Assembly: GCF_001650195.1 (NCBI RefSeq)
Contig: NZ_LXYR01000018.1
Location: 1-64,000 of the forward strand
DNA length: 64,000 nt
Direction of reading: 5' to 3'
Source: Phormidesmis priestleyi BC1401
GTDB lineage: Bacteria; Cyanobacteriota; Cyanobacteriia; Leptolyngbyales; Leptolyngbyaceae
Shown here: piece after piece, positions 9,441-49,786 of the stretch
Layout of the letters: the number at the start of each line of letters is the position of its first letter
Numbering within the stretch: position 1 is the stretch's first letter
Made by a program: the position numbers and the translations under genes
Notes under the pieces: model-generated
Told to the model about the DNA's origin: nothing
The model's database searches: none
Seen by the model: the letters and a program-made list of their open reading frames with translations, nothing else

Positions 9441-10931
9441 GTGAAAAAAGCTGGAGTAATAACCGCGACGGCACTGCTTTGCGCTACTTACTTGAGCATT
9501 GCACTCATTGATTTGGGTCTCGATAAGTTTTACTACATTCTTGCGGGAGGCAAAAAGTTTGCGACCTTTCCTGATCTCATCAGTCAAATTGGGATTGGCG
9601 GCAGTTATTTAGTGCTCGCAGTTCTCTATCTCGTGTGGTTTTTAGGCATCGATCGCCGCGCTACAGTTTTAACATTTGGTGAGATTCTAAAAAAGACTGC
9701 CGCCTTCTGGTTAATTGCGTTCATCTCCTATCCATTAGGCAATGATGTTTATCTTTATCTGCACTCAGGCTTGATGAATCTGAGTGGGGTGAACCCGTTT
9801 ATCACTCGTGCCGCATTGTTTTCGTCTGAGCTATCGCCCTTTGTAGACTGGGGGCAGACTTCAACTTACGGTCCGATTTCACAGTTTTTGTTTACGATAT
9901 CCGCCGCGATTCTCTCAATTCATCCGATTCTGGCGATTTACGTTTTCAAAGTTTTTTGCCTGATATTGCATCTTTTCAATGGTTATTTAGTTTGGCAACG
10001 GTTGCCAATTGAAGACGGAAACCCACTCTTTAATCGTGACAAGATTGCGATCGCTTATCTCGTCAATCCGCTTTTGCTGATGGAGCAGGTTGGGTCGGCT
10101 CACATTGATGTGTTGGTTTCGACGAGCGCGATCGTGCTGGTGGCGAGTCTGGCTAAACAGCGATATTGGCTCTCAGTTATAGCCTTGTGGGGCGGGTTTC
10201 TCTCAAAAACAATTCCGTTAATTTGGGTGCCTCTGGTTGCCATCTTTCTGATTCGACATCGCCGATGGTATCTGCTGCTCAATGCAGTTCTGGCTTCGTT
10301 GGGTGTGATTTTGGTGCTGAGTGCGTCAGAGCTTCCAGGACTCGCCGCTTGGAGCAGCTTGCTCAACCCTGGGGTGACGGGGCAGTTTCAGGCATCGCTG
10401 CACACGATCGCTCGATTTGGACTCGACCTCGTGCGGATTTTTGTTCCTGGCTCGATCGGAATGAGTCAGCAGCAAATTATTCTTTTGATGTTGACTCGTC
10501 TCACGTTGCTGTGGTTCGCTGGTTTTTATGCCCTGACTGCGTGGCGCGCTTGTCGCCAACGAATCTATTCAGATCAGGATTTGGTTGAAGATATCGGCTG
10601 GGTGACGTTGGTGCTGCTGCTGTTTGCGACCCCGTGGCTGATGCCCTGGTATGCGTCGATCATGTTGACGATCGCCGCTCTGATCCCCAGAGCTAGACTG
10701 TTTGGGTTAACAAGTCTTGCATTTGGGCTGTCGAGTAGCGCTCAATATTTGCTGCAAGGACACAGCAGTTTAAAGGGTCTGGTGTCGATCGGAATTCCGT
10801 TGCTTGTCTTATTGGTGGGAGCCAAGATTTTGAAAGTGAACTCGATCGAGGAAGTGAAATCGCCCCGATCGGAGGAGCAGCTTTTGCTAGGAGACGGGCA
10901 GCATCACAGCGAAGAGACGATTAGACTTTAA
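9441..10931 (+). CDS. Polytopic GT87-like mannosyltransferase family protein
   Basis: 496 aa with roughly ten to twelve transmembrane helices. The arrangement, an early periplasmic loop with the acidic pair in PLGNDVYLYLHSG and a second loop with YGPISQF, fits polyprenol-phosphate-hexose-dependent glycosyltransferases of the GT-C fold (MptA/MptB, GT87). Those enzymes add a sugar from a lipid donor on the outer face of the membrane. The exact sugar and acceptor are not deducible. The start is GTG at 9441. Its stop overlaps by 4 nt the stop of the convergent substrate-binding protein. Confidence 0.68.
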   Translation: MKKAGVITATALLCATYLSIALIDLGLDKFYYILAGGKKFATFPDLISQIGIGGSYLVLAVLYLVWFLGIDRRATVLTFGEILKKTAAFWLIAFISYPLGNDVYLYLHSGLMNLSGVNPFITRAALFSSELSPFVDWGQTSTYGPISQFLFTISAAILSIHPILAIYVFKVFCLILHLFNGYLVWQRLPIEDGNPLFNRDKIAIAYLVNPLLLMEQVGSAHIDVLVSTSAIVLVASLAKQRYWLSVIALWGGFLSKTIPLIWVPLVAIFLIRHRRWYLLLNAVLASLGVILVLSASELPGLAAWSSLLNPGVTGQFQASLHTIARFGLDLVRIFVPGSIGMSQQQIILLMLTRLTLLWFAGFYALTAWRACRQRIYSDQDLVEDIGWVTLVLLLFATPWLMPWYASIMLTIAALIPRARLFGLTSLAFGLSSSAQYLLQGHSSLKGLVSIGIPLLVLLVGAKILKVNSIEEVKSPRSEEQLLLGDGQHHSEETIRL

Positions 10932-39068: not shown

Positions 39069-40142
39069 TTGAAACTTACCCTCCCTGTCAATATTCCGAC
39101 TTCTCCTTGGGCGCTTCTGTCAGAGACGCACTTCAAGGTTATCCCATCCGTTCGCGCTTACCTAAAAGACTGGAAACTGCAGGCAAGCCAAATTCCAAAT
39201 TCAGAACTGCGGAAACAAGCGATCGCCAGCCTTGAAGCTAAACAGTTTCACTGTGAAGGGGGCGCGATTTACGGACTACTGGCGAAAAGAGATTGTCGAA
39301 AAGCAATCCGCTTTATTGTGGCTTATCAAACCATTAGTGACTATTTAGATAATTTGTGCGATCGCAGTAGTTCGCTAGACCCCGAAGATTTTCGGGCACT
39401 CCATGAATCTATCCTTCAGGCTTTAACGCCCGGTGCAGAATTGTCTAACTATTACCGATTCCGTGAGGACCAAGACGATGGCGGCTATCTCGAAAGTCTA
39501 GTTAGAACGTGTCAGAACGTTTTAGCTAACGTTCCGAATTACTCAAAAATTGCTCCAACGCTGCACGAGCTGGCAACCTATTACTGTGATTTGCAAGTTC
39601 ACAAGCATGTCAAGGTCGAAGAGCGGATTCCCCGCTTAAAAGCCTGGTTTGCTTTATATCAAGATAAATTTCCTGACCTCAGTTGGTATGAGTTTTCTGC
39701 GTGCGCGGGGTCAACTTTGGGAATTTTTTGTCTCGTTGCTTACTCATTCAATCAGGAGTTTTCTGAAAGCTTCGCAGCCCAGATTAAAAACAGTTATTTC
39801 CCTTGGGTTCAAGGACTGCATATCTTGCTCGATTATTTGATTGACCAAGAGGAAGATCGAGTCAATGGCGACTTAAATTTCTGCTTTTATTATCCAAGCG
39901 AAGATGAGATGACAAAACGATTTCAGCATTTCATCAAAAAAGCCACTGAAAGCGTTTCTCAGCTACCCGATACGCGATTTCATCAGCTCATCAATCAGGC
40001 ACTGTTAGGCGTTTATCTTTCAGACAAAAAGGTAAAGAGACAACAAAATGTTCAGGATGTTGCAAAGCGATTGATTCGATCGGGCGGCAGTCCTGCTGCT
40101 TTCTTCCTTCAAAATCGATTGGTTACGTCGCATTTGGTGTAG
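39069..40142 (+). CDS. DUF2600 (YtpB-like) terpene synthase family protein
   Basis: 357 aa, all helical. Two acidic clusters stand out: DYLDNLCDR (residues 91-99) and LLDYLIDQEEDR (about 248-259), as in YtpB-type tetraprenyl-beta-curcumene synthases that use all-trans tetraprenyl diphosphate. A basic and aromatic N-terminus follows the TTG start at 39069; no ATG in frame gives an adequate N-terminus. It is followed 55 nt later by an FAD-dependent reductase, suggesting a two-gene terpenoid pathway. The actual product is unknown. Confidence 0.76.
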   Translation: MKLTLPVNIPTSPWALLSETHFKVIPSVRAYLKDWKLQASQIPNSELRKQAIASLEAKQFHCEGGAIYGLLAKRDCRKAIRFIVAYQTISDYLDNLCDRSSSLDPEDFRALHESILQALTPGAELSNYYRFREDQDDGGYLESLVRTCQNVLANVPNYSKIAPTLHELATYYCDLQVHKHVKVEERIPRLKAWFALYQDKFPDLSWYEFSACAGSTLGIFCLVAYSFNQEFSESFAAQIKNSYFPWVQGLHILLDYLIDQEEDRVNGDLNFCFYYPSEDEMTKRFQHFIKKATESVSQLPDTRFHQLINQALLGVYLSDKKVKRQQNVQDVAKRLIRSGGSPAAFFLQNRLVTSHLV

Positions 40143-40197
40143 AGAAACAATCTCCGACTTTCACTCAAACTAAATTATTAGACAGGAAACCTCAATT

Positions 40198-41325
40198 ATG
40201 GCTACTATTGCGGTGATAGGTGCAGGACCATCAGGATGTTCGGCAGGATATCATCTCGCCAAAAGTGGACATCAAGTCACCTTAATCGATAAAAATCGTT
40301 TTCCTAGAGACAAAGTATGTGGAGATGGAATTAGTCTTGAGTCTATTCAAGCCTTATCCACGATGGGAATTTATCCCCAAGATCTGAAGAAACTAATCGT
40401 TGATTATGCACCCGTTCATCGGTTTTTTCTAGGAGTTTCAAATCAAATTTCTCATAGTGAAGCGACAAGCTTAGAGGCATACTGCATTCCAAGATTTGTC
40501 TTTGATCAATTACTCTACGAAAAAGCGATTGATGTAGGATGTGTTCCTCTCACTCAAACGATTAGCAAAAAGGATGGGCACCTTCAGACTTTATCTAGAG
40601 AGTTTGATTATCTGATTGATGCCCGTGGTGTGTCTGCGGGAGAGGTGACTGCGATCGCAATTCGCTCTTACTGGAGCTTCGATCGTCAAGACTTATCCGA
40701 AGTAGACCTAACCGAAGCCCAAATCCATTTCGATCATCACTTGGGGGTGAATGGGTACGGTTGGATTTTTCCAGTCGCGACTCAGGGAGAAGTCGTCAAA
40801 TTTAATGTCGGGGTCGGGGTCTGGATGGATGAGTACCAGAAAATCAATACGAATGTGATTCAGTTGTTTAAGGAGTTTATTCAAAGTAACAAACAAACGG
40901 CACATCTATTAAGTAAAGTCCTTCACCAGGAAACTCCTAAAGTGTATCCTCTAGCGACGGCTAAAAAAGGGAATCAAGTTGCAGATGGAAACATTCTTAA
41001 GATTGGAGACGCCGCTAATCTGACTGATCCTTTGACGGGTGAAGGGATTGCCAATGCAGTTCTTAGTGGGCTTTATGCTGCACAAGCGATTAACATGAGC
41101 CGTTCTCCAGAAATGGCAGCAGAGAATTGGCAATATCTCTATGAAGCTCGTTTTGAAGCAGATCTGCGTGCGGGTCTACGAATCAGAGCGTTTAGAAAAT
41201 TCTCGTTTATGAACACGCTGCTGATTCGGGTGATGAAACACAATCCGCGGGTTGCCGCACAGGTGAGTCATGCGGTTGCAGGGTTAGTGCCCTATCACGA
41301 AGTTCTATCTTCTCTAAGATATTAA
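40198..41325 (+). CDS. Geranylgeranyl-reductase-family FAD oxidoreductase
   Basis: 375 aa. N-terminal FAD-binding GAGPSG (residues 7-12) with a downstream acidic IDKNRFPRDKVCGDG motif typical of the geranylgeranyl reductase family, and the second FAD motif GDAANLTDPLTGEGIANAV. It lacks the long extra region of ChlP, so it is a paralogue, not the chlorophyll enzyme. It probably acts on the double bonds of a polyprenyl or terpenoid product of the preceding gene. ATG at 40198. Confidence 0.82.
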   Translation: MATIAVIGAGPSGCSAGYHLAKSGHQVTLIDKNRFPRDKVCGDGISLESIQALSTMGIYPQDLKKLIVDYAPVHRFFLGVSNQISHSEATSLEAYCIPRFVFDQLLYEKAIDVGCVPLTQTISKKDGHLQTLSREFDYLIDARGVSAGEVTAIAIRSYWSFDRQDLSEVDLTEAQIHFDHHLGVNGYGWIFPVATQGEVVKFNVGVGVWMDEYQKINTNVIQLFKEFIQSNKQTAHLLSKVLHQETPKVYPLATAKKGNQVADGNILKIGDAANLTDPLTGEGIANAVLSGLYAAQAINMSRSPEMAAENWQYLYEARFEADLRAGLRIRAFRKFSFMNTLLIRVMKHNPRVAAQVSHAVAGLVPYHEVLSSLRY

Positions 41326-41497: not shown

Positions 41498-41830
41498 TCA
41501 GTCCCGGTTTGTTGCTTGTTTTCTCCTCGCTGATGCTCTATACCACAGCGAAAAACCAGCAACCGCCATGATTAAAAGCCCTAAAGCATTGAGAAAAGGA
41601 TAAATAAATCCCAACTTCAGAGGACCAAAATTGCCTTTGTGGAGACTAAGTAACCAGTCAAATTGCTCTCCTTGACCTGCCAAGTCTGCGGCTTGATAAA
41701 GCGAGCCAGTTGTCAGGGTGAGAAGGAGAGGCAGGATCACAAAAGGCGCTAAAACATACTTGATATGACGGAGGCGACGGTCTGGGTTTTTTGAAGCAGG
41801 CTGGTTAGCAGGAAGTTGGTTAGATTGCAT
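41498..41830 (-). CDS. PepSY-associated TM-like small membrane protein
   Basis: 110 aa from ATG 41830 (MQSNQLPANQ). Two transmembrane helices are seen (VLAPFVILPLLLTLTTGSLY and IYPFLNALGLLIMAVAGFSLWY). The connecting segment contains LLSLHKGNFGPLKLG. I recognise the pattern of PepSY-associated transmembrane domain proteins (LHKGxFG then PFLNxLGL). It may belong with the PepSY protein at 43168, but I do not see the 22-bp box in front of it. A longer N-terminus to 41977 is doubtful. Confidence 0.6.
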   Translation of the reverse strand: MQSNQLPANQPASKNPDRRLRHIKYVLAPFVILPLLLTLTTGSLYQAADLAGQGEQFDWLLSLHKGNFGPLKLGFIYPFLNALGLLIMAVAGFSLWYRASARRKQATNRD

Positions 41831-42235
41831 CGTTGAGACGTTTGGTTTGGGGATAGGACTAAAAACTGACCTAGAACCGTGTTGAACAAACAGTCCATTC
41901 ACATCGTGCGTCAATTTGAGTATACAGGTTCGATCGTAAAATTGCCCTGAGATGAGCAATAGACAACATTCTTCCAAGGATGGAATTATTGCGCTTGTTC
42001 AGGATTCGTTGCCACACTGTCATTTTAATTCGTGGTCTCATAGCGATCGTACAGTCCTTTAGCTGCTGCCTCGCGGCTTGATCGAGCAGCGCGTGTGCTT
42101 ACTCCATCGGCTTAAACGCCTGGTCTGAGATTTCTATACTGTCGATGTCTGTAATCACCAATGAGGTGGCAGATTCTTAGCATAGTGAAGGCACTCGATC
42201 GCGTTATTAATCTGCGATCTATTCTGCACTTACTC

Positions 42236-42937
42236 TCAAAATTTTAACAATCCGCCCATCTTTTTCTGAGTTTGCAGTTTCAGCAAAGTGATGCAGATCA
42301 TTAGCCAGAGAAAGCCAACAGCATAACCTGCAACAATGTCGGTGAACCAATGAACGCCCAAATAGAGGCGACTGACCCCAATAGCAGTAATTAGAACGAC
42401 TGCGAAACTGTAGATCCAGTGAGATAACTTTGGAAACTCGATCGCCAAAAGATGGGCGAGAAACCCATACAGAACCAAAGATCCCAAGGCATGACCGCTC
42501 GGAAAGCTAAACGACGTTTCAGGAATGAGCGGAGTCCAAAGCTGAGGGCGAGGTTTCGCAAAAAAGAGCTTTAGCCCCTGATTGAGAATGAGTGCGCCTA
42601 GACACGCGATCGTTAGGACTTTTGCCTCAGTTCGCTGCTGTCTCCATAGCAACAGCCCAAAACTCAGAGCAATGATCACGACCACACACTCAGGATCACC
42701 GAATCGAGTTAAGCTCACCATGACTCGATCGAGAACAGGGTTCGTCCACCGATGCACTTCTAGTAAAACGGTGGTATCGAATCCGAAGGCTTCTTTTTCT
42801 AAAACTTCTTGAAACAGCCAACTCAAGCCTAACAAAATGACTAAGCAAGCGAATAGAGCGATCGTACTGATCGCGGTCATTAGAGCTGCAAGAGGTTGGT
42901 TGATTCGACGAATCCAGAAATGAACCAGTTTTTGCAT
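42236..42937 (-). CDS. PAP2-family membrane phosphatase
   Basis: 233 aa from ATG 42937. Six transmembrane helices. All three PAP2 signatures are present: KLFFAKPRP, PSGHALGS and SRLYLGVHWFTDIVAGY, so the histidine nucleophile and supporting Arg and Asp are intact. It would dephosphorylate phosphatidic acid, undecaprenyl pyrophosphate or a similar lipid on the outer side of the membrane. Its promoter carries the 22-bp box shared with two other nearby genes. A TTG at 42949 is an alternative start. Confidence 0.88.
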   Translation of the reverse strand: MQKLVHFWIRRINQPLAALMTAISTIALFACLVILLGLSWLFQEVLEKEAFGFDTTVLLEVHRWTNPVLDRVMVSLTRFGDPECVVVIIALSFGLLLWRQQRTEAKVLTIACLGALILNQGLKLFFAKPRPQLWTPLIPETSFSFPSGHALGSLVLYGFLAHLLAIEFPKLSHWIYSFAVVLITAIGVSRLYLGVHWFTDIVAGYAVGFLWLMICITLLKLQTQKKMGGLLKF

Positions 42938-42966: not shown

Positions 42967-43000
42967 AGTATATCCAGTAAAAGTCAAGAACTTGAAAAGA
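42967..43000 (-). promoter_or_regulatory. Response-regulator-type box and -10, PAP2 promoter
   Basis: Minus-strand direct repeat TCTTTTCAAGT (43000-42990) and TCTTGACTTTT (42989-42979), 11 bp each, then 6 nt, then TATACT (42972-42967). The leader to the ATG at 42937 would be about 23 nt. The 14-bp core AAGTTCTTGACTTT is identical to the copies at 43105 and 44090. The box overlaps the expected -35 position, as for class II activation by OmpR/PhoB-type regulators. Confidence 0.65.
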
Positions 43001-43097
43001 TACTCACCTTTTTCATTTCTAGCGATCGCTGGAAATTTTTTGTATCTGAAAGGCAAACCGATTGATTGGGGCAACAACTGGTTTAACCGTGTTCAAA

Positions 43098-43131
43098 TCT
43101 TTCTAAGTTCTTGACTTTCAGTACCTACAGT
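43098..43131 (+). promoter_or_regulatory. Response-regulator-type box and -10, PepSY promoter
   Basis: TCTTTCTAAGT (43098-43108) and TCTTGACTTTC (43109-43119), 6 nt, then TACAGT (43126-43131). The ATG at 43168 would have a leader of about 30 nt. It forms a divergent promoter with the PAP2 box about 100 bp away. Confidence 0.65.
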
Positions 43132-43167
43132 GAAATGGCAAACCCACATAACAATAGATTTCACACC

Positions 43168-43740
43168 ATGAAAACCTCAACCAAACTCATTTTGACTGCT
43201 GCTGCGATCAGCACATTCGGGATGGGTGTTCTAGCCAAGCTAGTGAATGCTACCCAGACCCAATCTCCTGTTGCAGCCATGCCCACTGCTCAAGTCGCAG
43301 AAAGGAGTGACGGAGATGGTGAAGTCAACCCCGCTACAGAAGCGCCGGAAGCTGCTCCCAAGTCTCAACTTCAAGCCAATTCAGCCCAAGTAGAGCCAGC
43401 GAACGGGAGGACTAGCGAAATGAGCGAGGGTGCTAAAGAACAGCAGGAGTCTAAAAAGCTGCAATCTCTTGCCAAAATTACCCCACAGCAGGCACAGCAG
43501 TCTGCTGAAATCGCCGCAAAAGGAAAAGCAACAAGCGTCAATCTAGAAAACGAAAACGGTGACCTGGTTTATGCCGTACTAATCGGACAGAACGAAGTCA
43601 TCGTGGATGCAGGCAACGGTAAAGTTCTCGGTACAACCCCGCCGAACAGTGAGAATAACGAAAAGACCCAGTTCCGCAGCAGCATTCAAGTGTCTCAAGC
43701 GGCTGATGATGGCGATGGCGAAACCAACGACGACGGCTGA
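43168..43740 (+). CDS. Periplasmic PepSY-domain protein
   Basis: 190 aa from ATG 43168 (MKTSTKLILTAAAIS). A hydrophobic signal/anchor segment is followed by a long Ala/Glu/Ser/Pro-rich disordered linker, then a PepSY domain (KITPQQAQQSAEIAAKGKATSVNLENENGDLVYAVLIGQNEVIVDAGNGKVL). The tail is acidic (DDGDGETNDDG), possibly metal-binding. PepSY proteins are commonly paired with OmpR-type two-component systems and often modulate the sensor or a protease. The 5' alternative start at 43111 lies in the promoter box and is rejected. Confidence 0.78.
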   Translation: MKTSTKLILTAAAISTFGMGVLAKLVNATQTQSPVAAMPTAQVAERSDGDGEVNPATEAPEAAPKSQLQANSAQVEPANGRTSEMSEGAKEQQESKKLQSLAKITPQQAQQSAEIAAKGKATSVNLENENGDLVYAVLIGQNEVIVDAGNGKVLGTTPPNSENNEKTQFRSSIQVSQAADDGDGETNDDG

Positions 43741-43902
43741 TTGAAAATGCTGACAACTCAGTCCGCTAAACTGTCTAGCCATTCAGTTCCTCATCAGGGG
43801 CAGATTGAGCTGCTTTGATCTGAAGTTGATTGCCGCACCCTAGTAAAGAGAATTATCCCTTCAATTTCCTTTAGCTGAGGAGGTTGAAGGGATTCTCTAT
43901 TA

Positions 43903-44026
43903 GACCTCCTGCACGAATCCTTTGCCCTCACCCTAGCCCTCTCCATAAGGAGAGGGAACAAGAGGTTCTAGCTCTCCCCAGAGAGAGAAGGGTTGGCGAG
44001 GGCTGTCCAGATTCATGCAGGAGATC
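43903..44026. repeat. MITE-like repeat, variant with CTCCTGCA ends
   Basis: Ends GACCTCCTGCACGAATC (43903-43919) and GATTCATGCAGGAGATC (44010-44026) are inverted with two mismatches. The interior has CCCTCACCCTAGCCCTCTCC, like the interiors of the elements at 2669 and 4815 in the other orientation. It therefore shares the core but has different ends. It lies in the leader region between the PepSY gene and the next promoter box. Confidence 0.6.
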
Positions 44027-44082
44027 TATTGAAAGAAAAGATGAATGGCAGACCCCTTCACAAGATTTGGGGCAGTACCTGG

Positions 44083-44116
44083 TCTTTCCAAGTTCTTGAC
44101 TTTCACCCTTTAGAGT
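44083..44116 (+). promoter_or_regulatory. Response-regulator-type box and -10, COG4705 promoter
   Basis: TCTTTCCAAGT (44083-44093) and TCTTGACTTTC (44094-44104), 6 nt, then TAGAGT (44111-44116). A leader of about 50 nt ends in AGGAGCAACAA before the ATG at 44172. It is the best-matching copy to the fourth box at 46391. Confidence 0.65.
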
Positions 44117-44171
44117 AAAGTCGCAAATTCAATCAAAGTTTAGCAGCCAGACAGCAACCTAGGAGCAACAA

Positions 44172-44927
44172 ATGAACAAACTTCCCCAAATCACTGCATT
44201 CTTCTGGATCATGAAGATCTGTGCAACAACTCTAGGAGAAACGGCAGGAGACCTATTATCGATGACCCTCCAGGTAGGCTATGCAGTCAGTTCTACGATC
44301 CTGATCGGAGTCTTTTTGGCGACGCTTGTGGCTCAACTGGTGTCAAAACGCTATAACCCACTGCTTTATTGGGCTGTGATCCTAGCAACTAGTACAGCAG
44401 GAACAACAATGTCAGATTATATGGATCGCACGCTAGGGCTAGGCTACGCTACCGGGTCGATGATTTTAGTGACCATTCTCTTAGCAATTTTTGCGTTCTG
44501 GCACTTAAGTGTTGGGTCACTCTCGGTTAAAAACGTCAAGACACCCAAAGTTGAGCTACTGTATTGGACTGCCATTCTATTTTCAAATACGTTGGGGACT
44601 GCTTTAGGCGATTTCTTAGCCGATACGTCTGGACTTGGATTTGCAGGCGGGGCATTCCTCATTGCAAGTTTGCTTGCCTTGGTATTAGCAGCGCATTATT
44701 TCTCCAAAATCTCTGGGGTCTTATTGTTCTGGATTGCGTTTGTCCTCACCCGTCCGTTTGGTGCAACACTAGGAGATGTTTTGACCAAATCACACGAAAA
44801 AGGCGGACTTAATTTTGGGACAGTTGGCTCGTCGATCGTCCTTGTATCAATTCTGGGAGTCTGTATTCTATTCACTACTCTAAGGCAGAAAAAACTGACC
44901 GTAGCTGGCAGTTCTAATCATGAATGA
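44172..44927 (+). CDS. COG4705-type multipass membrane protein
   Basis: 251 aa built from four repeats of about 60 aa. Each starts with an aromatic/Lys-rich loop and a glycine-rich helix bearing a T-x-G-D/S-D motif (TTLGETAGDLLS, TAGTTMSDYMD, TLGTALGDFLAD, FGATLGDVLT). About eight transmembrane helices. The family is annotated only as membrane-anchored protein; a transport role is plausible from the internal symmetry and buried acidic residues. It has a strong Shine-Dalgarno and its own copy of the 22-bp box. Confidence 0.8.
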   Translation: MNKLPQITAFFWIMKICATTLGETAGDLLSMTLQVGYAVSSTILIGVFLATLVAQLVSKRYNPLLYWAVILATSTAGTTMSDYMDRTLGLGYATGSMILVTILLAIFAFWHLSVGSLSVKNVKTPKVELLYWTAILFSNTLGTALGDFLADTSGLGFAGGAFLIASLLALVLAAHYFSKISGVLLFWIAFVLTRPFGATLGDVLTKSHEKGGLNFGTVGSSIVLVSILGVCILFTTLRQKKLTVAGSSNHE

Positions 44928-45009
44928 TACTCAGTTCAGTACATTCTCAACAGTTCCAATTTCTACCCAACAAACCGATTGATTTTACCAACACACTGGC
45001 GATGAAGCA

Positions 45010-46323
45010 CTACGTTAGATGGGCTTGATCATCGCCAGTATTTGCAGACGGAGGTTTTACAAATTTAACCATTCCTGTCATCGCTGTTAACTGCACGGTG
45101 AAGCAACTACCAGCCCCAACTTGACTGCTGACGCTGATTGTTGCGCCGTGACTTTGGGCGATCGAGCGGGCGATCGCTAACCCCAATCCAGATCCACCTT
45201 CCCAATGAGCGCGAGACTGATCCGCCCGCCAAAATCGGTCAAACACTCGCGCCAAATTTTCTGAAGCAATGCCAATTCCGGTATCGTTTACGTCAACCAA
45301 AAGAGTTTGCCCGGTGCGGCTTAACTTTATTTCGACTCTTCCCTCTGCTAACGTGTAGTGCAACGCATTGATGATTAGATTTGTGAATAATCGAGTGAGT
45401 TGTGCAACATCGCCTAATACCCACGAAGACTGAGCTAAGTGAGCGTGTAAGATAATTTGTTTTGCGTGGGCTTGAGGCTGATATCGCTCGACTAACTGCT
45501 CCAAAATTGCTGTTAAGTTGACGGGCTGGAAATTGGGGTTTGCCGCTTGATCAGTCCGCGCTAGTAGCAACAAATCTTCAGTGAGATCAGTCATTTGATG
45601 GGTCGCACTGGCGATCGCTTCAAACTTTTCAACATCAGTTGGGCGCATTCCATCTGAATATTTCAACGCAACAGATACATTGCTTTTAATCGCCATCAAC
45701 GGACTCCGCAACTCGTGGGAAGCATCCGCCGTGAACTGTTTCAACCGTTGAAAACTTTCCTCGATCGGGTACATGGCTTGACGAGTCAGCCAAACCCCGC
45801 CAATACCACTGAGAATCAACGCCATCACAATTCCGCTGCCTAAACCCCAGTCCAGCTTTCGCAGATTTTCATCCAACTCTTCGAGCGACTGACTGGCTCT
45901 GACATACCCTAGTTTTCGGTGATCATCGCCGCTAACAATAGGCAACGTGACTGATTGAATCCGAGGTTTCGATAGCTGAACTTGCAGCGCTTCAAGGCTC
46001 GAAAACGGTAAGGTTGAAATGGCTTTTCCCTGTTGAGCAATTAACTGTTCCTGAAGATCAAACCACTGCAATGCTTGACCTCGCGCAATGAGATCTTTAA
46101 CAGGAATGTCCTTCCCGACTTCTAGCTGACCGTGGTTAAATTCTGCACTGGTTGCGGCTCCTTGTCCCAATGTTGTCAATTCATCGGTGAGTTGTTGCTT
46201 GAGACTATGTGCATAGACAAGCCGAACGGCGAGCGCAAACGTTCCTAAGATCGAGGCGAGAACGATCAGGTAAGAAATCAGCAGCCGATTTTGAATCTGC
46301 TTAAACACAACGTTTGAAATCAA
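45010..46323 (-). CDS. Sensor histidine kinase (QseC/EnvZ-type)
   Basis: 437 aa. Two transmembrane helices (about residues 15-35 and 153-175) bound a periplasmic sensor loop of about 115 aa without a recognised domain. HisKA has the phospho-acceptor in FTADASHELRSPLMAIKSNVSVAL. HATPase motifs NLIINALHYT, DTGIGIA and GSGLGLAI are intact. The start is TTG at 46323 or GTG at 46308. It is 102 nt after the response regulator; the gap carries a degenerate copy of the 22-bp box, consistent with feedback. Confidence 0.88.
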   Translation of the reverse strand: MISNVVFKQIQNRLLISYLIVLASILGTFALAVRLVYAHSLKQQLTDELTTLGQGAATSAEFNHGQLEVGKDIPVKDLIARGQALQWFDLQEQLIAQQGKAISTLPFSSLEALQVQLSKPRIQSVTLPIVSGDDHRKLGYVRASQSLEELDENLRKLDWGLGSGIVMALILSGIGGVWLTRQAMYPIEESFQRLKQFTADASHELRSPLMAIKSNVSVALKYSDGMRPTDVEKFEAIASATHQMTDLTEDLLLLARTDQAANPNFQPVNLTAILEQLVERYQPQAHAKQIILHAHLAQSSWVLGDVAQLTRLFTNLIINALHYTLAEGRVEIKLSRTGQTLLVDVNDTGIGIASENLARVFDRFWRADQSRAHWEGGSGLGLAIARSIAQSHGATISVSSQVGAGSCFTVQLTAMTGMVKFVKPPSANTGDDQAHLT

Positions 46324-46390
46324 TAAAAATCAGTGACTCATATCGCTCGATCGCTGCAACCATTAAACGGTTTCGTCCACGATGGAGAAA

Positions 46391-46412
46391 CAAGACCAAG
46401 AACTCGGAAAGA
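46391..46412 (-). promoter_or_regulatory. Degenerate fourth copy of the 22-bp box, upstream of the sensor kinase
   Basis: TCTTTCCGAGT (46412-46402) and TCTTGGTCTTG (46401-46391) on the minus strand. The first 16 bases differ from the 44083 copy by one base; the second half-site diverges after TCTTG. No TAnAnT hexamer follows at the 6-nt distance, so it may be a weak or autoregulatory site. Confidence 0.5.
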
Positions 46413-46425
46413 TGAGTGCGATCAA

Positions 46426-47100
46426 TCAAACTGAATGGAGCCGATAACCGAGACCATACACTGTTTCAATCAAATTTTCTGGGCTTCCGGCACCTTTTAG
46501 CTTGCGACGCAGGTTTGTAATGTGGGTTTTAATCGTGTCTTCGCCAGAAGATTTATCAAACTCCCACAACCGATCTAAAAGCGCTGAACGGGTTAAAACC
46601 TGGGTGGGAGTTCGCAAAAAACACTCTAAAATCATGTATTCTCTGGGAGTCAATGCCAAGGGCACTCGTGCATAGGTGACGTTATAGGTGCTAGGGTCAA
46701 GCTCTAACTGACCATAAATCAACGTGGTCGCTCTGGTTTCTGGACTTCTTCGCGACAGTGCTCTGATGCGCGCGGCTAATTCTTCTAGTTCAAAGGGTTT
46801 AACCAGATAGTCATCAGCCCCAGCATCCAATCCAATGATCTTATCGCTCGTGGTGTCGCGTGCGGTCAACATCAGAATCAGCGCCTGAGATTTGGCAGCC
46901 CGCAGACGTTTGCAGAGGCTAATGCCGTCTAATTTAGGCAGCATTAAGTCTAGCAAAATTAGATCATAAACGACTCCTTGAGCGGCTTCCCATCCCGCCA
47001 AGCCATCCTTTGCAATATCTACAACGTGGTGCTGATATCTGAGATCTTCGGCTAAAGGCGTGGCAATTCGGGTATCGTCTTCAACTAATAAAATTCTCAT
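46426..47100 (-). CDS. OmpR/QseB-family response regulator
   Basis: 224 aa. Receiver domain with the acidic pocket EDD near the start, phospho-acceptor Asp in LILLDLMLPKLDG (about residue 51) and Lys in DDYLVKPFELEELAARI. A winged-helix C-terminal domain (LTPREYMILECFL, DTIKTHITNLRRKLK, YGLGYRL) binds DNA as a dimer on direct repeats. It is the natural candidate to recognise the TCTT-N7-TCTT box at the four sites listed here. ATG at 47100. Confidence 0.93.
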   Translation of the reverse strand: MRILLVEDDTRIATPLAEDLRYQHHVVDIAKDGLAGWEAAQGVVYDLILLDLMLPKLDGISLCKRLRAAKSQALILMLTARDTTSDKIIGLDAGADDYLVKPFELEELAARIRALSRRSPETRATTLIYGQLELDPSTYNVTYARVPLALTPREYMILECFLRTPTQVLTRSALLDRLWEFDKSSGEDTIKTHITNLRRKLKGAGSPENLIETVYGLGYRLHSV

Positions 47101-47482: not shown

Positions 47483-49786
47483 ATGGTCAAGCGATCGCTT
47501 CAATCTTCTCTTTCTGGAATTCAACAGACTAAACGAGCGTTTGCCCTGAAGGGGTGGACGCAGGATAACCTGGCAGGGGAGGTCAACTTAAAGACTCGTC
47601 AACCCATCTGGCGGTTTTTCACTGGGCAGTCGGTCGATCGCCAAATTTTTACAGCCATTTGTGTTGTTTTAGACTTGGATTGGCGAGACATTGCCATCGA
47701 TCCCCCCGCTGAATTTCCTGAGCTTCAAAAGCAGGTGGGCGATCTCGCGATCGAGAGTCTGGTGCAGCAGGTGCGATCGCAGCGTCAGGCTAAAATTCAA
47801 GACCAGTGCGGCAGCTTGCAGTTGCTAGATATCAGCCATCCCGTCAGCATTGATGATATCTATATTGATGTCAATATTTTAGAAGCGATCGCGAGTCAGC
47901 AGCGGCTAGAAGTCGCCAACCTCGAAACCTTGCAACCGGAAGCGGTCGATCGCATGGGCTTGGGTGAGGTTGACCAACGCCAGGTTTCAGGAATGCGAGC
48001 CGTTGAAACCTACCCCAAACTCAGAGTATTGGGCAAACCAGGAGCCGGAAAGACGACCTTTCTACAACACCTTGCCATTCAGTGTAGCCAGGGCGCGTTT
48101 GAGGCGACGCGGGTGCCGATCTTCGTCACGCTGAGACATTTTGTAGAAGAGTCTGCCAGCGGTGAATTCAGCTTGTTAAACTACCTACAGCAAGAATTTC
48201 TCATTGATGGCATCACTGACCCGACCATAATAGAAACCTTGCTCAAAGCCGGACGGGTGCTGCTGTTGTTGGATGGGCTGGATGAAGTTCTGCACCAGGA
48301 GAGCATTGCGGTCTTGAGAGAAATTCGCCGCTTTTCAGACAAATATCACAAAAATCGAGTTGTGACGACCTGCCGCACTGCCGCCCAAAAGTTCAGTCTG
48401 CGAGGCTTCACCGATGTGGAGATCGCTCCGTTTACGCAGGCACAAATCAACGCCTTCGCGCAGAAATGGTTTGTGGCATTTACCAAAACCACCGCTCAGG
48501 CAGGAGCGATGCAGTCCTCTCAGTTTATCCAGAAGCTAGACCTCCCGGAAAACTGGCAGTTTCGTCAGCTAGTGGTTAATCCGCTGTTTCTGCACCTTGC
48601 CTGTTGGGTGTTTTATGGTCAGAGCAGGTTCCCGACCAAGCGCAGCGAGTTTTATAAGGAAGGGCTAGATTTGCTGTTAGGCAAATGGGATGAAGCCAGA
48701 GGGGTCGAACGCGATGAAGTTTATCGGGGGTTTTTGTTGCCCCAAAAGCTGAAGCTGTTGAGCCAGCTTGCCGCGGTCACCTTTGATCAGGGTCAGTATT
48801 TTTTTGAGCAGCGAGTGGTGGAGCAACACATTGAGGACTATATCCGGCATCTGCCCAATGCTTCAACCGACGATGAAGAACTGCACCTCGAAAGTGAATC
48901 GGTGCTGAAGGCGATCGAGTCTCAACACGGCTTGCTGACCGAACGCGCACGGGGCATTTTTTCGTTTTCCTATCTAGCGTTTCAAGAATATTTTACAGCG
49001 CGAAATATCGTTGCGAGTCATAACCTTCAGTCGTTAGAGCAGGCATTGGGTGGGCTGGTGAGTCACCTGACAGACCCGCACTGGCACGAAATCTTTTTGT
49101 TGACCGCTTCGATGTTGCGGAGTGCCGACTCACTGATGCAGTTGATGAAACAGCAGATTGATGCGTTGGTTGCCCAAGATCCCTATCTGCAAGAGTTTTT
49201 GCGGTGGGCAAGCCAAAAATCGAAGCTCCCAGTCGAAACCAGAGAGGCAACGGTGCGAGCCTTTCATCTAGCGATGGCTCAAACGCCGCACAAAGCGGCT
49301 AACTTTGCGCTCGCCTGCACCCTCGACCAGGGGATGTTTTTGGATATTGCCTTAGATGACCTGCTGGTGGAGTGTACGATCGATCAAAGTCCAGATTTTG
49401 CCCATGCTCATCTATGCGTCGATTCACTCAGCAATATTTTGGGGATTGTACTGGATGCTGGGTTTCACAAATCTCTGCAACAACTCCAAGAGCAATTGCC
49501 GCTCGAACAAAACCAGGCATGGTTTCAGAGTTGGTGGCAGGCACACTACACCGCCTGGTCAGAGCAGCTTAAGACCACGATCGCTCACTATCGACGGCTT
49601 GATCAAGACTGGCAGTTTAGCCCAGACCAACAGCAAGTCCTGCAACGCTACTACGCCGCCAATCAACTCCTGCTCGATTGTCTACACAGCGATTGTGAAG
49701 TGACAGCCCCGATTCGAGCGGAAATTGAAGCCACTTTATTGCTGCCTCAACAAGAACTCGAAGCGAGAGAATGGCACGAGTGCTGA
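47483..49786 (+). CDS. NLR-like NACHT ATPase with N-terminal HTH-like domain
   Basis: 767 aa. Residues 1-75 resemble a short helix-turn-helix (KRAFALKGWTQDNLAGEV, KTRQPIWRFFTGQSVDRQIFTAIC), seen in many cyanobacterial NACHT proteins. A linker leads to the NACHT domain: Walker A LGKPGAGKTT (184-192) and Walker B LLLLDGLDEV. The downstream helical region ends in FSFSYLAFQEYFTARNIV, typical of NACHT C-terminal helical domains. Bacterial NACHT proteins of this general type can act in antiphage defence; others are regulators. No effector domain is recognisable, so mode of action is unknown. Confidence 0.8.
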   Translation: MVKRSLQSSLSGIQQTKRAFALKGWTQDNLAGEVNLKTRQPIWRFFTGQSVDRQIFTAICVVLDLDWRDIAIDPPAEFPELQKQVGDLAIESLVQQVRSQRQAKIQDQCGSLQLLDISHPVSIDDIYIDVNILEAIASQQRLEVANLETLQPEAVDRMGLGEVDQRQVSGMRAVETYPKLRVLGKPGAGKTTFLQHLAIQCSQGAFEATRVPIFVTLRHFVEESASGEFSLLNYLQQEFLIDGITDPTIIETLLKAGRVLLLLDGLDEVLHQESIAVLREIRRFSDKYHKNRVVTTCRTAAQKFSLRGFTDVEIAPFTQAQINAFAQKWFVAFTKTTAQAGAMQSSQFIQKLDLPENWQFRQLVVNPLFLHLACWVFYGQSRFPTKRSEFYKEGLDLLLGKWDEARGVERDEVYRGFLLPQKLKLLSQLAAVTFDQGQYFFEQRVVEQHIEDYIRHLPNASTDDEELHLESESVLKAIESQHGLLTERARGIFSFSYLAFQEYFTARNIVASHNLQSLEQALGGLVSHLTDPHWHEIFLLTASMLRSADSLMQLMKQQIDALVAQDPYLQEFLRWASQKSKLPVETREATVRAFHLAMAQTPHKAANFALACTLDQGMFLDIALDDLLVECTIDQSPDFAHAHLCVDSLSNILGIVLDAGFHKSLQQLQEQLPLEQNQAWFQSWWQAHYTAWSEQLKTTIAHYRRLDQDWQFSPDQQQVLQRYYAANQLLLDCLHSDCEVTAPIRAEIEATLLLPQQELEAREWHEC

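Follow-up and report, generated by a model that had tools for sequence, protein, structure and literature searches.

The stretch of DNA treated here, called the window, comprises 64,000 nt of contig NZ_LXYR01000018.1 of Phormidesmis priestleyi BC1401, and positions are numbered on it. It encodes a PAP2-family phosphatase, a secreted PepSY-domain protein and a DUF347 (COG4705) membrane protein, beside a two-component pair consisting of a sensor histidine kinase and an OmpR/PhoB-family response regulator (Table 1). Each of the first three genes is preceded by a 22-bp box, which we consider a probable site of action of that regulator. A sequence-only reading of this DNA had described these boxes as sharing an identical 14-bp core and as being followed, in the direction of the gene, by 6 nt and a TAnAnT hexamer. 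That description is exact. The pattern TCTTTYYAAGTTCTTGACTTTY is matched perfectly at all three places and nowhere in shuffled windows, the core AAGTTCTTGACTTT is the same in all of them, and TATACT, TACAGT and TAGAGT stand 6 nt past the PAP2, PepSY and DUF347 boxes, respectively. A fourth, degenerate copy had been reported before the kinase gene and beside the regulator gene. It is there, between the two genes, but with five mismatches, and the sequence at +6 reads CATCGT, which is not a hexamer of this kind. In a relative (G018, L049:1820), a better site aligns at the same place and keeps TACAAT. Bases of that −10 are missing from the window copy in the alignment, and box 4 looks decayed rather than functional. 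A scan of the window with Rfam gave no match.

Table 1. Boxes, −10 hexamers and genes at the locus, in window positions.
Feature	Position	Strand	Basis or remark
PAP2-family phosphatase gene	42236..42937	−	Pfam PF01569, E=5e-23; ATG at 42937, listed open reading frame from TTG 42949
−10 hexamer TATACT	42967..42972	−	6 nt after box 1; sequence and spacing statistic
Box 1, TCTTTTCAAGTTCTTGACTTTT	42979..43000	−	Upstream of PAP2 gene; perfect match
Box 2, TCTTTCTAAGTTCTTGACTTTC	43098..43119	+	Upstream of PepSY gene; perfect match
−10 hexamer TACAGT	43126..43131	+	6 nt after box 2; sequence and spacing statistic
Secreted acidic PepSY-domain protein, DGDGExN motifs	43168..43740	+	Pfam PF03413, E=7e-7; alignment
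Box 3, TCTTTCCAAGTTCTTGACTTTC	44083..44104	+	Upstream of DUF347 gene; perfect match
−10 hexamer TAGAGT	44111..44116	+	6 nt after box 3; sequence and spacing statistic
DUF347 (COG4705) four-repeat membrane protein	44172..44927	+	Pfam PF03988, E=4e-63
Sensor histidine kinase, two transmembrane segments flanking a periplasmic domain	45010..46323	−	Pfam HisKA, HATPase_c; orthologues
Box 4, degenerate	46391..46412	−	Upstream of kinase gene; five mismatches, −10 lost
OmpR/PhoB-family response regulator, helix KTHITNLR, predicted box binder	46426..47100	−	Pfam Response_reg, Trans_reg_C

The distance from the box to the −10 is almost invariant. Boxes with up to three mismatches were collected from the P. 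priestleyi genome and four relatives without requiring a −10, giving 26 sites, not all of them independent because some are paralogous PepSY copies. TANNNT begins exactly at +6 in 24 of the 26, at +7 in one, and at none of the positions from +0 to +5 (background rate 1%; p ~3e-46 for 24 of 26 at +6). No −35 match is found at the boxes 17 bp upstream of the −10, allowing 16–18 bp; the second half-site does contain TTGACT, but just 9 bp from that hexamer. The window copies repeat TCTT..C with an 11-bp period; in this genome, the first half mostly reads TCTTTYC. The half-site emerges from diverged copies next to the regulator as TCTTGAC-N4-TCTTGAC, in which two 7-bp motifs are separated by 4 bp. 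The replacement of the −35 by a dimer of an OmpR/PhoB-family protein is a known promoter layout, PhoB being an example. Both marks of such class-II promoters are present, the direct repeat of 11-bp period and a site in the −35 place at fixed −10 spacing. Together, site and −10 span 34 bp, precise enough for targets to be predicted by pattern search.

Such pattern searches of the 5.55-Mb P. priestleyi genome return 11 boxes at three or fewer mismatches, and the reversed pattern returns none; a chance origin is thereby excluded. The additional boxes precede a second and a third PepSY gene (contigs C31 and C84), a further DUF347 gene and an MprF-type lysyl-phosphatidylglycerol synthase (both on C84), the undecaprenyl-diphosphatase UppP (C101), and an HpnJ radical-SAM gene accompanied by an ArnE-like EamA protein (C25); another DUF347 gene lies downstream of the PepSY gene on C31. 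With targets on all these contigs, the regulon of this genome is scattered and made largely of envelope genes. The sequence-only reading had called it small, which does not stand against 11 sites here and more than 100 elsewhere. C84 also holds a truncated PAP2 remnant (L012 9842-10107; 70 residues, 74% identity to the window PAP2), still preceded by a box whose −10 at +6 has been lost. A second box on that contig, at 9803(−), faces away from the remnant and has no intact gene ahead of it.

The same reading had suggested looking in related genomes for the box at its set distance from a −10. A scan of 84,980 species genomes for box plus hexamer, in which all counts are lower bounds, finds at least 116 such sites in cyanobacteria, in about 30 named genera. 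The 116 cyanobacterial sites listed all lie outside predicted genes, and for 99 of them there is a gene on the same strand within 400 bp, whereas among the 29 non-cyanobacterial matches listed, 10 fall within genes and 4 point towards one. A general repeat dispersed over unrelated sites, named beforehand as what would overturn the proposal, is thus not what is seen; the cyanobacterial sites avoid genes, and the others behave like chance matches. The families most often found behind the listed sites are DUF347 (15) and PepSY (15), followed by DUF2808 (7), signal peptidase I (5), Omp85 (4), the Sbt_1 transporter (4) and HpnI (3). One or two listed sites each precede PAP2, acyltransferase 3, an HhoA/HtrA protease, an ArnT-like PMT, a peptidoglycan-binding protein, DUF2127, rubrerythrin and the response regulator itself. 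The Sbt_1-family genes, which encode SbtA-like bicarbonate/Na+ transporters, were an unexpected target (L102, L123, L130 and L175). One contig from a metagenome-assembled genome of Legionellaceae (Tatlockia; L091, JACCVJ010000553.1) carries the box together with a regulator of 75% identity and a DUF347 of 84% identity; it is probably a mis-binned cyanobacterial contig, or else a recent transfer.

Large plasmids, most of them conjugative, also carry orthologues in Anabaena cylindrica PCC 7122, Tolypothrix PCC 7601 and 7712, Chroococcidiopsis thermalis PCC 7203 and several Nostoc. Conjugative plasmids of PCC 7122 and PCC 7203 have boxes before DUF347 and PepSY. The boxes of the three plasmid regions that were read stand before DUF347, PepSY or neighbouring genes, in surroundings that include metal-efflux genes, a manganese catalase and also a VIT1/CCC1 transporter.

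The assignment of the boxes to the adjacent regulator draws on several kinds of evidence. Among 85 stretches fetched by DNA pattern alone, 27 contain an orthologue of the regulator in the same stretch (within 8 kb). In a class-wide sample of 390 genomes, of which 41 have an orthologue, it occurs in 11 of the 15 with the exact element versus 30 of the other 375 (p=4.6e-9), and a relaxed box occurs in 23 of the 41 genomes with the regulator versus 12 of the 349 without it (p=1.2e-17), statistics that ignore shared ancestry. At least 3 of those 12 represent one conserved site with unrelated neighbours (G163, G234 and G293), which we treat as outside the regulon; a match in G041 (two mismatches), which lacks both a hexamer at +6 and a known target, was also rejected. 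Linkage, diverged boxes and the helix signature are independent of the co-occurrence statistics. In several genomes lacking the exact box, a diverged form, TCTTGNCRAGTTCTTGACNNTT-N6-TANNNT, lies beside the orthologue, and in one case (L107) a box precedes the regulator gene itself. In the regulator tree, the box-linked regulators form a clade that is split from the RppA-type paralogues with 100/96 support. The recognition helix of the clade is KTHxTNLR, with T192 and N196 in 36 of 36 members, and that of the paralogues is xxHxKGLR or similar. The box is real, and its predicted control by the 46426-47100 protein, as the sequence-only reading had it, is well supported by co-occurrence, close linkage, the clade-specific helix, the fixed −10 spacing and the lack of an alternative −35.

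We therefore regard it as quite probable that this regulator activates transcription from the boxes as class-II sites, which overlap the −35 position, perhaps in response to metal or cationic envelope stress. The box, its −10 spacing and its association with the regulator are read directly from the sequences; binding, activation and signal are what we infer. The sensor kinase would phosphorylate the regulator, and a tandem dimer would bind the two heptamers, one helical turn apart, and recruit RNA polymerase to the −10 hexamer exactly 6 bp past the box in place of the absent −35. Since there is no −35 at normal spacing, little promoter activity is expected when the activator is missing. The expected output includes the DUF347 protein as a probable cation exporter, PAP2/UppP-type phosphatases, and the secreted acidic PepSY protein, which may bind metal, modulate the kinase as DbfQ does, or both; in various genomes, MprF, hopanoid-modifying enzymes, signal peptidase, HtrA and Omp85 would be added. 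Upon activation of the regulator, the system would probably turn on metal-handling and envelope-repair genes.

The nature of the signal is a separate matter. The sequence-only reading had pointed to three envelope proteins with no annotated common function. The box does tie them together, but a plausible common theme exists, namely metal and envelope stress, suggested by the targets DUF347, phosphatases, acidic PepSY, MprF, UppP, hopanoid enzymes, LepB, HtrA and Omp85. In Frankia, DUF347 is lead-induced together with UppP and has been proposed as a metal transporter (PMC4531530). In lead resistance, the phosphatase PbrB frees periplasmic phosphate, which traps exported lead (PMC8195591). The box is common to DUF347, PAP2 and UppP, an arrangement that may be comparable to metal export with phosphate precipitation by PbrA/PbrB, with the metal transport by DUF347 being a proposal of the literature. 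Each of the four DUF347 repeats has one Asp (D27, D82, D147 and D202), invariant in 18 homologues and consistent with cation handling. Its predicted structure has eight helices (mean predicted local distance difference test score 87), and because the best match of the fold among solved structures reaches only E=0.39, which is no match, no function is drawn from it. By analogy, the likeliest signal appears to be a surplus of divalent metal or some related cationic stress on the envelope, with about an even chance of being right. A real contender, which we place somewhat short of probable, keeps the regulator and the box as proposed and makes the signal damage to the cell wall or to lipid II, antimicrobial peptides or acid. 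UppP, PAP2, MprF, HpnJ/HpnI, ArnT-like proteins, LepB, HtrA and Omp85 are typical of responses to envelope damage and peptide antibiotics; however, the most frequent targets, DUF347 and acidic PepSY, suggest metals by analogy with the literature, and several plasmid copies lie among metal-efflux genes. Only tentatively do we put forward the full combination in which a widespread pair, on chromosomes and conjugative plasmids, would drive both lipid/hopanoid remodelling and a metal-detoxification set, the latter consisting of a DUF347 exporter, PAP2/UppP phosphatases supplying periplasmic phosphate and a metal-binding PepSY protein that feeds back on the kinase.

Beyond the shared ancestry behind the co-occurrence figures, several observations weigh against activation of these genes by the adjacent pair under metal stress. 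The metal signal is argued from analogy. No box, even by the relaxed pattern, is found in 18 of the 41 genomes that have the regulator. Five box-linked regulators (54–61% identity) belong to the paralogous clade that lacks the TNLR helix. Finally, the complete-looking genome G006 has eight good boxes on one contig (G006:C2:60833-72319, L044), before PAP2, PepSY, DUF347, an HpnI operon and other genes, with no kinase orthologue and no regulator closer than 53%; either another regulator reads those boxes, or the pair has been lost. G006 and the five paralogous regulators, together with three genomes that have a box and no close orthologue (G152, G327 and G366), could mean that a different OmpR-family regulator encoded elsewhere reads the boxes, the adjacent pair being either a further target of it or an accidental neighbour. 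We think this unlikely in view of the strong co-occurrence (p=1e-17), the linkage within 8 kb in many genera, the diverged boxes adjoining diverged regulators and the clade-specific recognition helix.

That the regulator binds the boxes and represses is, if anything, harder still to credit: the overlap with the −35 position could seat a repressor, but with no −35 hexamer 16–18 bp from the conserved −10, low basal activity is expected, and the fixed 6-nt gap is what polymerase contact would call for and is needless for repression. An ordinary sigma-70 promoter or a dispersed repeat with no regulator is very improbable, since TTGACT, although near the −35 consensus, is only 9 bp from the −10 and the first half-site is equally conserved, while the sites face genes and avoid coding sequence, and the box, unlike its flanks (common by descent among the paralogous PepSY copies), recurs before unrelated genes.

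The window PepSY gene is about 2.7 kb from the regulator gene, and one also lies near the kinase/regulator pair in L107, L218, L221, L234, L270 and L271. The structure predicted for its product is confident in the PepSY domain only. A small PepSY_TM-like membrane protein with no box of its own is encoded near two box loci of this genome, in the window and on C84 (window 41498-41977; L012 12708-13001). Divergent from the regulator gene is a STAND protein with NACHT and NCH2 domains (47483-49786), possibly defence-related. A possible terpenoid operon (39069-41325) encodes a DUF2600 protein, of the tetraprenyl-beta-curcumene synthase-like family, and then a geranylgeranyl-reductase-like FAD enzyme.

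In the literature searched, which lay mostly outside subscription journals, neither this box nor the pair is described for cyanobacteria, and nor is a PepSY regulon. The system is apparently undescribed in the searchable open literature and appears to belong with the OmpR-family, PepSY-associated two-component systems. The closest named models for both window proteins are the cyanobacterial RppA and RppB (NF041734/NF041735), but the scores fall below the curated cut-offs (231.7 versus 250 bits and 283.3 versus 400 bits), and the box-linked regulators form a separate clade with another recognition helix. The Chroococcidiopsis plasmid carries NCBI annotations of RppA and RppB that are distinct from the box-linked pair.

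Mycobacterium tuberculosis PhoP binds as a tandem dimer to a 7-bp direct repeat with a 4-bp spacer, a geometry that has been solved (PMC4832192). The repeat here has that layout, as does that of PhoB, but the PhoP half-site is TCACAGC and its regulon is another. Two-component pairs with a PepSY protein encoded next to them form an established module, reported to exceed chance expectation more than 60-fold, and in Vibrio cholerae the PepSY protein DbfQ binds the sensor domain of its kinase (PMC12714742). DbfQRS resembles the present locus in having a small secreted PepSY protein encoded beside the pair. The PepSY protein here differs in being longer and acidic and in having a box promoter of its own, and an interaction with the kinase is hypothetical. 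BqsRS of Pseudomonas aeruginosa is likewise an OmpR-family pair beside PepSY genes, those of PA2658/PA2659. Its site, the repeated pentamer TTAAG-N6-TTAAG, has an 11-bp period and can overlap the −35, and its signal is ferrous iron (PMC4682146, PMC12714742). The system described here is cyanobacterial, with TCTTGAC rather than TTAAG as half-site, DUF347, UppP and hopanoid genes as targets, and a signal that is a matter of inference. ColRS of Pseudomonas putida shows that a regulon of envelope and lipid functions can be metal-induced, since the one it controls reacts to excess Zn, Fe, Mn and Cd (PMC4074579, PMC2689224). Membership in ColRS was rejected because the published ColR core, (T/C)(T/C)NA(C/G)NN(T/C)TTTTT(C/G)AC (PMC2689224), differs from TCTTGAC-N4-TCTTGAC. 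The regulon would bring the uncharacterised families DUF347, PepSY, DUF2127 and DUF2808 under a single regulator, and for DUF347 it suggests a function that can be tested. It is a candidate cyanobacterial counterpart of the proteobacterial ColRS and BqsRS envelope-stress systems.

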